This document shows, piece by piece, positions 2,803 to 5,333 of a stretch of DNA of 64,000 nt; position 1 is the first letter of the stretch, and every line of letters begins with the position of its first letter. Origin of the DNA: Roseivirga sp. UBA6061 (GTDB lineage: Bacteria; Bacteroidota; Bacteroidia; Cytophagales; Cyclobacteriaceae). Location: positions 18,598-82,597 of the forward strand of contig DIYF01000116.1 in NCBI GenBank assembly GCA_002427745.1, read 5' to 3'. Under the pieces are notes generated by a model. It saw only the letters and a program-made list of their open reading frames with translations. It searched no databases and was not told the DNA's origin. The translations under genes were made by a program, and so were the position numbers.

Positions 2803-2828
2803 CAAAAAAAGCCACTCCCCAGTGGCTT
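2803..2828 (-). terminator. Intrinsic terminator of the structured RNA
   Basis: Read on the minus strand, an 8-bp stem (AAGCCACT-type arms at 2809-2816 and 2821-2828) with a GGGG loop is followed by seven T residues (2804-2810, partly paired). It lies about 180 bp upstream of tetR and so separates the upstream RNA from the tetR-exporter operon. Confidence 0.8.
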
Positions 2829-3455
2829 CTTTCTGTATTTTTTTAAAAATACCCCCAAATAACAAAAGCGGGGGACAATTGCTTGCCCCCACTCATCCTG
2901 CATCAACCGTGGTTGGTGCAGAATACCAAGTTACTGTTCAGAACTTCATCCTCCGTACAATGGCCCAAGCTATTGTCTGGCGGATTCTGTCTTTTTCCAG
3001 CTTCGCCCTATGCATGCACTCAGTGCGATGCAATTAAAATGAAGCATGCAGTTTGAGAGAGTTACCTGCTCGGCAAGTAATTCCCGGACTCTTGGCGCCA
3101 CTACACCCGAAGGTGTAGCTTTGCTGACCTCGCTTTTTGCCGCATTCCCGAAAGAACTATGACACTGCGCTGATCAATGGACTTTCCACCGTAGTTTCCT
3201 GTCCAAGTCCGCCAAAGTGATTACCCTGAAGCTTTCACTTTGGGTAGCTATCCCAACATCCACCCCGAAGAGCTGACATTGACTAGTTCTACCTTCCACA
3301 TGAATACCGGAGGCATCATGCTTCTGCTTTACTGTCTCAGAACGTCATCTTGCGATTCCGAACCTTTCACTACCATTTTCCGAGCTTCCCCCGGAGAGAG
3401 ACTGAAGTCTTACCTTCTGTTCTTTATCCCTCACTTGGTATACCTAAGGTAGTTT
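2803..3455 (-). ncRNA. Unidentified large structured RNA (candidate)
   Basis: Gene-free sequence with many intact stems read on the minus strand. Pairs in plus coordinates: 3212-3220/3235-3243 (9 bp), 3179-3184/3205-3210, 3101-3107/3112-3118 closed by a cUUCGg tetraloop, 3062-3069/3073-3080 (8 bp, one wobble), 3011-3017/3044-3050 (7 bp), 2899-2907/2912-2920 (9 bp, one wobble), 2870-2874/2886-2890, and a terminator at 2803-2828. Both the UUCG loop and the terminator T-tract occur only on the minus strand, which sets the direction. The 5' end is a guess. I do not recognise the family. Group II intron remnant or divergent RNase P were considered but the diagnostic elements are not found. Confidence 0.55.
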
Positions 3456-3488
3456 TAATAATTTTACGTGCAAACTTTATAACTACCT
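3447..3488. repeat. Inverted repeat flanking an AT-rich segment
   Basis: AGGTAGTT at 3447-3454 and its exact complement AACTACCT at 3481-3488 flank a 26-bp AT-rich core. A palindrome GGTATACC lies just left at 3437-3444. The segment abuts the DnaA-box-like array, where a DNA-unwinding element would be expected in an origin. Confidence 0.6.
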
Positions 3489-3490
3489 AG

Positions 3491-3558
3491 TTTTCAACAA
3501 GTTTCCCACGCATTTATACACAGGGTTATCAACAGGGTTATCCACCTAGTTATCCACA
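3491..3558 (+). other. Phased array of DnaA-box-like 9-mers, candidate oriC
   Basis: Four 9-mers start exactly 12 bp apart: TTATACACA (3514), TTATCAACA (3526), TTATCCACC (3538) and TTATCCACA (3550). Two fit the general bacterial DnaA box TTATNCACA exactly and two differ at one base. Weaker copies TTTCCCACG (3502, in phase) and TTTTCAACA (3491) precede them. All are in one orientation and lie beside the AT-rich segment 3447-3488. Protein genes immediately left run leftward and those right run rightward, as expected at an origin. No dnaA, dnaN or gidA gene is in the window, so the assignment rests on the array alone; a DnaA-titration or regulatory site is the alternative. Confidence 0.55.
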
Positions 3559-3730: not shown

Positions 3731-4456
3731 TTGAAAACAATTACTGCCAAAGCGAGTATCGCCCCTGCTCTTTCTACACTCTCTCAATACGGCAGAGAAG
3801 GAAATACAGCAGCCTACTGGCAACTGCTGGATAAGGAAATATTACAGCACAAAGTAAAATTCCCGATACTGGAGTATGTGGCTTGCGAGATCAATGCGAC
3901 ACTAAGGCAAGACGAAGAAGACAAGCTGATTGAGAAAATGGCGGAAGCCAGACACATTTCCAGCTATCCGGTAATCGGCAAACTCATACAGCTACGTCTG
4001 GACACTGATCTTGAAGCAGCTTATCATCTGGCCATAAAGCACATCATCCGGGGTAATGAGTGGTATGCCTGCGACATCATCAGTGAGCGGGTATTTGGTG
4101 AGGGCACTCTGAGAAACTTCGAGCTGAGCCTGGAGCTTATGAATGCTATGGGAGATCATGGCAACCTGTGGATAGAACGCTCTATCGGTATCGCCAGCCA
4201 TTATGCGACTAAAAAGAAACTGCCTAAGGACCAGGTAGAGCAGTTATTACTGCTTATGATTCGGCATGCCTGGAAAACCCAGTACTTTACCAAAAAAGGA
4301 ATTGGTTGGGCCGGTAAGACCATCGCCAAATATCACCCCGACCTGATTCACAAGCATGCCGAGCTTATGAGAAACACCAAACTATCCCGCTGGTTTATTA
4401 CCAAAGTAAATACAGGCCTATCCATGGCCAAAGCAGCCCCCTTCCATTATGAATGA
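3731..4456 (+). CDS. AlkD-like helical-repeat protein (DNA alkylation repair-like)
   Basis: A 241-residue, all-helical protein whose C-terminal half (GWAGKTIAKYHPDL...) resembles the GW-containing repeats of AlkD-type DNA glycosylases, which bind alkylated DNA through stacked HEAT-like helices. I cannot confirm the catalytic residues, so a role in DNA repair is inferred. The only start in reach is TTG at 3731. Its last 8 bp overlap the radical SAM gene, so the two are translated together and may act on the same kind of damage. A general HEAT-repeat scaffold is the alternative. Confidence 0.6.
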   Translation: MKTITAKASIAPALSTLSQYGREGNTAAYWQLLDKEILQHKVKFPILEYVACEINATLRQDEEDKLIEKMAEARHISSYPVIGKLIQLRLDTDLEAAYHLAIKHIIRGNEWYACDIISERVFGEGTLRNFELSLELMNAMGDHGNLWIERSIGIASHYATKKKLPKDQVEQLLLLMIRHAWKTQYFTKKGIGWAGKTIAKYHPDLIHKHAELMRNTKLSRWFITKVNTGLSMAKAAPFHYE

Positions 4457-5333
4457 AATTGTGGCCAAGAGCATATTGAACAAGAGCAAAAGGCGGGACC
4501 CCTGGTTTCTGGATGACTATACGGTCAATCCCTACAGCGGCTGCTCGTTCAATTGTCTTTACTGCTACATCCGTGGCAGTAAGTATGGCATTCATATGGA
4601 ACGAAAGCTTGGGGTGAAATCAAATGCCCCCGAGCTGCTGGACAAAGCCCTGAGGCGCAGAGCCGATAAAGGAGAATATGGCGTTATTGTACTGGCCTCC
4701 GCCACCGACCCTTACCTACAGCTGGAAAAAGAAACTCACCTCACCCGCAAACTACTTGAGATCATACTGAAATACCGGTTTCCGGTTCACCTGATTACCA
4801 AGTCTGACCTGATACTCCGCGATCTCGACCTGATAGAACGCATTGATCAAAAGGCCATTCTGCCCAAAGACCTGCCCGGCCTCGACCGGGGTGCCGTCAT
4901 TACCTTTTCCTTTTCTACCATAGACGAAAAGGTAGCCGGCATATTTGAACCCGGGGCTACCTCTCCCACACTCAGGCTCAATACACTGAGCGCCATTTCA
5001 CTAAAAGGTTTTTTGACCGGGGTCAGTATGATGCCCTTGCTGCCCTGGATCTCAGATACAGCCGAAAGCATGGAAGCTATGTTCAGCTCCTTTAAAGAAC
5101 AGGGAGCTCACTATTGCTTTCCGGCAGACCTTACTCTTTTTGGCAGTGGCAATTCTGACAGCCGAACACTGATACTCAGAGCTGTGGAAAAACACTACCC
5201 CCAATTCATTGACAAATACGAAAAGTACTTTGCCAACAGCACGGAGCTACCGGGCTATTATCGCAAGGCCTTCTATAAAAAGGTGAAGGAACTCGGAGTA
5301 CTGCATGATTTGAGAGACAGGATCATTGCCTGA
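4449..5333 (+). CDS. Radical SAM protein, spore photoproduct lyase-like (Rv2578c-type)
   Basis: 294 residues. The radical SAM cluster motif CxxxCxxC is present as C32, C36, C39 (GCSFNCLYCY), preceded by NPYSGC, typical of the SPL-like/Rv2578c group. A further feature is the SATDPYLQLE segment that follows the first barrel strands. Such proteins bind a [4Fe-4S] cluster and cleave S-adenosylmethionine; the substrate of this subgroup is not established, although relatives repair UV-damaged DNA. The start overlaps the AlkD-like gene by 8 bp, which supports a DNA-damage context. Length is normal for the group and no residue looks missing. Confidence 0.85.
   Translation: MNEIVAKSILNKSKRRDPWFLDDYTVNPYSGCSFNCLYCYIRGSKYGIHMERKLGVKSNAPELLDKALRRRADKGEYGVIVLASATDPYLQLEKETHLTRKLLEIILKYRFPVHLITKSDLILRDLDLIERIDQKAILPKDLPGLDRGAVITFSFSTIDEKVAGIFEPGATSPTLRLNTLSAISLKGFLTGVSMMPLLPWISDTAESMEAMFSSFKEQGAHYCFPADLTLFGSGNSDSRTLILRAVEKHYPQFIDKYEKYFANSTELPGYYRKAFYKKVKELGVLHDLRDRIIA

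Follow-up and report, generated by a model that had tools for sequence, protein, structure and literature searches.

The stretch of Roseivirga sp. UBA6061 DNA analysed here (64,000 nt, hereafter the window, to whose full length all positions refer) contains a structured non-coding RNA gene on the minus strand, read leftward from ~3464 to 2803 and supported by homologues, covariation and a match by a model built without Roseivirga sequences. As judged from sequence comparison, it is almost certainly a conserved structured RNA gene that makes no protein. Taken as one statement, it is fairly probable that the RNA belongs to a new family whose modular members act in trans and that the copy in the window is under DnaA-linked control. 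What is new here is the RNA family itself, which has no catalogued relative and comes from a phylum with little-known regulatory RNAs; the size and strong conservation of the RNA fit an important job.

Extent, strand and fold of the RNA

The 3′ end was set by the terminator and the 5′ end by promoter-like hexamers. The corresponding minus-strand elements, ACTTGTTG (3502–3495) and AAAGTTTG (3478–3471), which we take to resemble the Bacteroidota -33/-7 promoter consensus, probably place the start at ~3464, seven bases past AAAGTTTG, for a predicted length of ~660 nt. A sigma-70 scan returned no minus-strand promoter at 3471–3502.

The initial annotation had proposed that a strongly structured RNA of about 650 nt is read leftward here, and folding, covariation and wobble pairing all bear this out. 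The minus strand of 2803–3455 folded at -231.1 kcal/mol, compared with -193.8 (sd 6.8) for 20 dinucleotide shuffles (z -5.5). The plus strand of the same stretch also fell below its shuffles (z -4.6), so that folding energy alone gives no strand. The strand was instead assigned from the wobble pairs predicted at the outset: at the named pairs, G-U cells far exceeded A-C cells (77:3, 62:3 and 115:11; in total 254:17), which identifies the leftward strand as the RNA. Comparison with the nearest relative (89% identical) retained 22 of 29 changed pairs in the minus-strand fold and 9 of 23 in the plus-strand fold. The stretch had also been described as free of genes, which agrees with its open reading frames, all of them short. 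Across 17 aligned homologues, none of the six frames stayed open throughout and each held at least four stops; the longest stop-free run, 136 codons, occurred in a single homologue, on its opposite strand.

A covariation check among homologues, suggested at the outset, was run and gave a clear signal in both halves of the RNA and in a family-wide alignment, with the proviso that the loci share descent and counts across them are not independent. In the 5′ half (Roseivirga plus two outliers, 19 sequences), 94.7% of cells were paired and 10 of 23 pairs covaried; in the 3′ half (18 sequences), 97.4% of cells were paired and 22 of 35 pairs had changed on both sides. For neither half was the paired percentage or the covariation score reached by any of 500 shuffles; 38 of 500 shuffles equalled the 5′ half in the number of further pair types. 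These two alignments (A1 and A2) omit L020, and the second also omits L018. The family-wide alignment of the 5′ half (A3; 32 loci, excluding L095, L101, near-duplicates and all Roseivirga) had 88.7% of cells paired, against 71.5 when shuffled, with 135 cells changed on both sides, against 43.9, and 19 of 22 pairs covarying. Its closing helix (columns 79–83 with 141–145), picked from one sequence ahead of counting, covaried at 5/5 pairs with 78.4% of cells paired.

Both ends of the RNA, all on the minus strand, are joined by helix P1, found in a joint fold of Roseivirga homologues (L010, L018 and L020 left out), whose 5′ strand (UACCAAGU, 3433–3440) pairs with its 3′ strand (AACUUGGUA, 2924–2932). 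Among 17 Roseivirga sequences, its outer pair is C-G in 12 and U-A in the other 5, and the equivalent pair takes four pair types among 19 sequences of other genera. The 5′ domain continues with hairpin P2 (3396–3432; GAGGGAU/GUCUCUC plus an inner stem, helices 1 and 2 of the 5′ half), in which the outer seven pairs do not covary and two of the four inner pairs do, and with hairpin P3 (3379–3395; UCCGGG/CUCGGA), with 98.2% of cells paired and 4/6 pairs covarying. It ends at the conserved CUGAGACAG (3332–3340), the counterpart of a UGARACGGGNAACCGCAGAA unit in other genera.

The ends of the RNA are conserved, and its middle (~3330–3060) is conserved in sequence in the nearest relative only. The middle stems predicted by the joint Roseivirga fold were set aside, since as many as 8 of the 17 sequences fail to keep them. 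The cUUCGg hairpin pointed out earlier lies in this variable middle part (3116–3103); in the nearest relative, one of its pairs changes from C-G to U-A and one is broken. Towards the 3′ end, hairpin A (2894–2925) covaries at 13/13 pairs and hairpin B (GUGGGGGC/GUCCCCCGC, 2868–2892) at 2/8, while hairpin C (GUAUUU/AAAUAC, 2835–2852) is invariant in 18 sequences and thus speaks neither for nor against pairing. The RNA was rightly credited with a terminator of its own: the hairpin and T-run at 2828–2804 have 100% of cells paired and 7/8 pairs covarying.

Relatives, modules and paralogues

BLAST found homologues in 20 of 59 genomes, comprising 18 of the 19 of genus Roseivirga and two in other genera; the single Roseivirga genome without a match is 80% complete. 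Three models were then used, built from 5′ ends (R1, 19 sequences), from 3′ ends of Roseivirga only (R2), and from 32 sequences none of which is from Roseivirga (R3). The family of the genome set that joins Roseivirga and Algoriphagus is termed GTDB-style here; NCBI taxonomy places the former in Roseivirgaceae and the latter in Cyclobacteriaceae, both in Cytophagales. R1 matched 43 of 295 genomes of the GTDB-style family (16 of 84 genera) and 13 of 291 in an order sample, all within this family. R3 recovered the window RNA with an E-value of 1.5e-7 and matched 75 of the 295 genomes (23 of 84 genera), as well as 5 of 395 in a phylum sample, again all of the same family. Of the 17 other Roseivirga copies that BLAST or R1 had detected, R3 missed five at an E-value of 0.001, so that these genome shares are lower bounds; with laxer filters and E-values up to 0.05, R3 reached 17 of 19 Roseivirga genomes. 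A second copy was not found in the window's own genome in strict or lax R3 searches.

Among 58 loci fetched from named genomes by a 5′ pattern, 42 were matched by R2 at E < 0.001 (12 in Roseivirga and 30 in other genera), always downstream and on the same strand. Four further loci (L110, L127, L144 and L156) have a 5′ match to R1 and no 3′ match below 0.001, in two cases because the locus ends. The remaining 12, none with a 3′ match at E < 0.001, look like chance matches to the pattern: five are from SAR86 and seven from single taxa (Prosthecobacter, KLAP123 Bacteroidota, Desulfobacteraceae, Sediminibacterium, Nostoc, Gastranaerophilales and Chitinophagaceae). The SAR86 contigs (L120, L140, L150, L152 and L162) carry the 5′ pattern at similar spacing and lack a 3′ match, and they probably reflect conserved SAR86 sequence that fits by chance. 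Separately, a divergent member matched at its 5′ as well as its 3′ end lies in a marine metagenome-assembled genome, Bacteroidetes bacterium MED-G21 (L161), and tandem pairs of the RNA, 0.8–1.4 kb apart, were seen in G124 (C1, 84.5–86.0 kb), in G112 (C54) and at L139.

The RNA varies in length by module. Short forms (~305 nt) contain one three-way-junction unit and long forms (~630 nt) three or four; some copies measure only ~230–305 nt. The unit in other genera consists of a closing helix, AAGG, a variable stem, UGARAC, a short hairpin CGG-GNAA-CCG, whose loop can differ from GNAA, and CAGAA. Of 34 loci, 12 contained three or four instances of a strict pattern for the 3′ half of the unit, 15 contained one and seven contained none; in these seven, a variant ends in CAGAC or CAGAU or the divergence is larger. 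The loci with three or four units are ~630 nt long, mostly from Algoriphagus, with a unit spacing of ~100–110 nt. No clear instance of the repeated unit could be made out in the middle of the window copy.

Sixteen loci with weak R3 matches were inspected one by one, and paralogue classes were drawn after this inspection, among them a short class of six loci (L230, L231, L232, L237, L239 and L249, from G001, G014, G008, G243, G163 and G186), three of which belong to Roseivirga. P1 of L232 reads CAGGU with GCCUG, compared with CAAGU and GCUUG in others. TGA-N6-TCA lies upstream of all six short loci, at -42/-43 in five and at -64 in the sixth, and none of the six has a DnaA-box-like site upstream. 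The ten other weak loci had TGA-N6-TCA in 0/10 and a DnaA-box-like site in 7/10, and the main-type loci had TGA-N6-TCA anywhere within 160 nt in 4/34. By their sequence, the sites upstream of the short paralogues appear Crp/Fnr-like. Another subtype, marked by a GCGGCCAUCUGAUGGACCGC-like hairpin, was observed at L233 (G153:C1:561140–561260), L234, L235 and L242. Two genomes, G153 and G093, have it ~7–8 kb away from a main-type copy, L233 being an extra copy in G153 close to its first one; box-like sites precede L233 and L234, and at one mismatch none precedes L235 or L242.

DnaA-box-like sites, origin and neighbouring genes

Directly upstream of the RNA, a sequence scan revealed a DnaA-box-like array (3491–3558, minus strand) that reads TGTGGATAA in the direction of the RNA. 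The box at 3550–3558 matches TGTGGATAA exactly, those at 3538–3546, 3526–3534 and 3514–3522 have one mismatch each, and weaker ones lie at 3502–3510 (three mismatches) and 3491–3499 (two). The four better boxes (3514, 3526, 3538 and 3550) follow a 12-bp period. Across 54 loci, 97 forward boxes with at most one mismatch were counted against 4.0 (sd 1.8) expected, compared with two reverse boxes against 0.6, and exact boxes numbered 33 against 0.2 expected. At least two forward boxes were present in 19 of the 20 BLAST loci (18 Roseivirga, two others), for which conservation of the array is favoured because they were fetched with a query that included it. The other 34 loci were free of this effect; there, 12 had at least two forward boxes, 27 at least one and seven none, so that the array is not universal. 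The background in 793 kb of G001 was 0.021 boxes per 160 nt and orientation, with two boxes in the densest stretches (three such places) and three at the RNA locus. As a row of such sites usually precedes the RNA, the gene may couple an RNA regulator to the cell cycle.

The initial annotation had placed the RNA beside a candidate origin. The DnaA-box-like sites at 3491–3558 uphold the part of this claim that concerns the boxes, but the origin itself probably does not hold, because skew switches lie far away in three relatives. The cluster is probably a promoter-side array of the RNA gene rather than the chromosome origin. As the window's own genome is split into 188 contigs, GC skew was taken from G001, G153 and G124. 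In G001, the GC3 skew of genes (40 samples of 13–20 kb, a few contrary to the trend) switches near 3.35 and 1.0 Mb, with the RNA at 0.50 Mb and dnaA at 2.76 Mb. In the two single-contig genomes, whose skew samples are noisy around the switch, it falls at 1.05–1.85 Mb in G153, with RNAs at 0.55 and 4.87 Mb, and at 0.9–1.8 Mb in G124, with an RNA at 0.085 Mb. A tight TTATCCACA cluster lies inside the skew-switch range of both (at 1,211,374 in G153 and 1,266,202 in G124); the G001 genome has no strict box pair near its skew switch.

The genes around the RNA differ from locus to locus. The nearest gene on the left in the window is TetR-like, with a score (22.6 bits) that falls short of the Pfam cut-off of 24; on the right are DNA-alkylation-repair-like and radical-SAM genes. 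Neighbour genes were grouped into clusters and named by eye. In Roseivirga, one side carries a glutaminyl-tRNA-synthetase-like gene or the repair pair, and the other TetR plus an exporter or a carbonic-anhydrase-like gene; in Algoriphagus, the neighbours are sulfatase- or oxidoreductase-like. The clustered flanking genes included none conserved across genera. The RNA had also been said to end before an exporter operon, which is true of the window, but other genes follow in some relatives. Because the RNA is retained where its neighbours differ from genus to genus, it very likely acts in trans, as far as comparative sequence can tell. Within the repair pair (3731–5333), which adjoins the RNA in the window and in a few Roseivirga loci, the DNA-alkylation-repair-like gene overlaps the radical-SAM gene. 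A TGATAGTAATACTATTA-like palindrome (2655–2690) precedes the TetR-like gene, of which it is probably the operator, and a similar one lies downstream of the RNA at L005–L008, L011, L013, L014 and L019.

Two readings would bind the RNA to its location. If the region were the chromosome origin, the RNA could be a transcript embedded in it like CcnA, a real origin-borne RNA (PMC8959179), and possibly feed initiation. A cluster of DnaA-box-like sites, as an oriC would have, is indeed found at the RNA promoter, and the only strict box pair genome-wide in G001 is that of the RNA locus; yet the skew switches lie away from the RNAs in G001, G153 and G124, and two genomes hold several copies, those in G153 not close to one another. 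An oriC transcript was rejected on account of the position of the RNA locus off the skew switch in the three relatives sampled, and we regard this reading as improbable. Still less can be said for reading the RNA as a riboswitch or 5′ leader that belongs to the TetR-like and exporter genes downstream. A TetR-like gene in the same direction follows in the window and in eight loci, but a strong terminator closes the RNA, and elsewhere the genes downstream are unrelated or on the opposite strand (carbonic anhydrase, sulfatase and others). This variation among loci led to rejection of the candidate, which is extremely improbable.

Working model and comparison with known systems

Comparison shows a leftward RNA of ~660 nt with its ends paired by P1, conserved end hairpins and an intrinsic terminator and, in other genera, one to four three-way-junction units. 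In the proposed mechanism, DnaA would bind the array and set transcription of the window copy, which would tie the RNA to replication or to the DnaA level; the boxes give this step a little better than an even chance. A Crp/Fnr-type regulator would set transcription of the short paralogues, a step for which the upstream sites argue with slightly more weight. The RNA might then bind a protein, with each repeated unit adding to the number of binding sites, in the manner of titrating or scaffold RNAs; this is the weakest step and doubtful. In its broadest form, the proposal is a new global regulatory RNA class in one Bacteroidota family, with one to four three-way units round a common P1 core, one copy read out by DnaA and hence replication-linked, sister copies by Crp/Fnr-type regulators, and all feeding one RNA-binding partner. 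We put this forward only tentatively. The array would be a possible direct connection from the initiator of replication to a regulatory RNA that lies apart from oriC, and paralogues under a different type of site would make a shared family function addressable by comparing targets. Should the function be protein titration, its working principle would already be known.

The initial annotation had not recognised the RNA, and Rfam 15 (4227 families) agrees, with no match at the gathering threshold in the whole window and none that is credible below it: at E-values up to 10, eight weak matches fell on the RNA, the best at 0.34 and most on the terminator. Across the loci of nine named relatives, only three tRNAs passed the threshold, and eight paralogue loci gave one chance match, outside the RNA; known Rfam families were rejected on these grounds. 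Length and an ornate fold could still suggest a divergent RNase P RNA, tmRNA, 6S RNA, SRP RNA or group II intron, but besides the lack of a match at threshold, the standard RNase P RNA (RF00010) was located elsewhere in all four genomes searched and ARAGORN found no tRNA or tmRNA in the window. RNase P RNA and tmRNA were each rejected for these reasons, and any such identity is very improbable. Plasmid and phage records gave no match to the RNA, and viral contigs gave 0 stretches with the 5′-domain pattern; a mobile-element RNA was thus rejected. An assembly of RNA alone, homo-oligomeric in the manner of GOLLD, ROOL or OLE and not protein-binding, would accord with a large, modular molecule whose GNAA-type hairpins could dock, as judged from their sequence, and such complexes exist (PMC12286853). 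However, the GOLLD, ROOL and OLE models did not match, the phage records and viral contigs speak against it as above, and some copies measure only ~230–305 nt, which leaves this reading unlikely.

CsrB/RsmZ-type RNAs are trans-acting and protein-titrating, with repeated GGA hairpin loops and paralogues under different regulators. The RNA described here resembles them in its presumed action in trans, its several paralogues, putatively under different regulators, and its repeated units, but the repeats are three-way junctions instead of GGA loops. CsrA (PF02599) was absent from 8/8 genomes searched, in a search whose control found it in 3 of 14 known genomes; CsrA titration was rejected accordingly, and the bound protein would be another one.

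Openly licensed literature yielded no description of this RNA, and PMC8632094 lacks the five taxon terms sought. Structured Bacteroidetes RNAs have been found by comparison before, among them 6S-flavo and other motifs of a 104-candidate set (PMC2864571); those with Rfam entries were among the models searched, and none matched. The FopS and GibS RNAs of Bacteroides are likewise paralogous and trans-acting in the same phylum, with the RNA-binding protein RbpB; as PMC11697453 describes them, however, they comprise 14 paralogues, which are short RNAs pairing with susC-like mRNAs, and Rfam gives no sequence relation to the window RNA. OLE, ROOL and GOLLD share with it that they are large, ornate, heavily structured bacterial RNAs of unclear role (PMC12286853), whereas the window RNA has no Rfam match, is built from one three-way unit in varying copy number and, among the genomes sampled, occurs in a single Bacteroidota family. 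For CcnA of Caulobacter crescentus, a CtrA-linked non-coding RNA (PMC8959179), the comparison is one of gene setting alone: CcnA lies inside the origin, whereas the window RNA probably does not, but both are non-coding RNA genes next to DnaA boxes, and CcnA is tied to a cell-cycle regulator.
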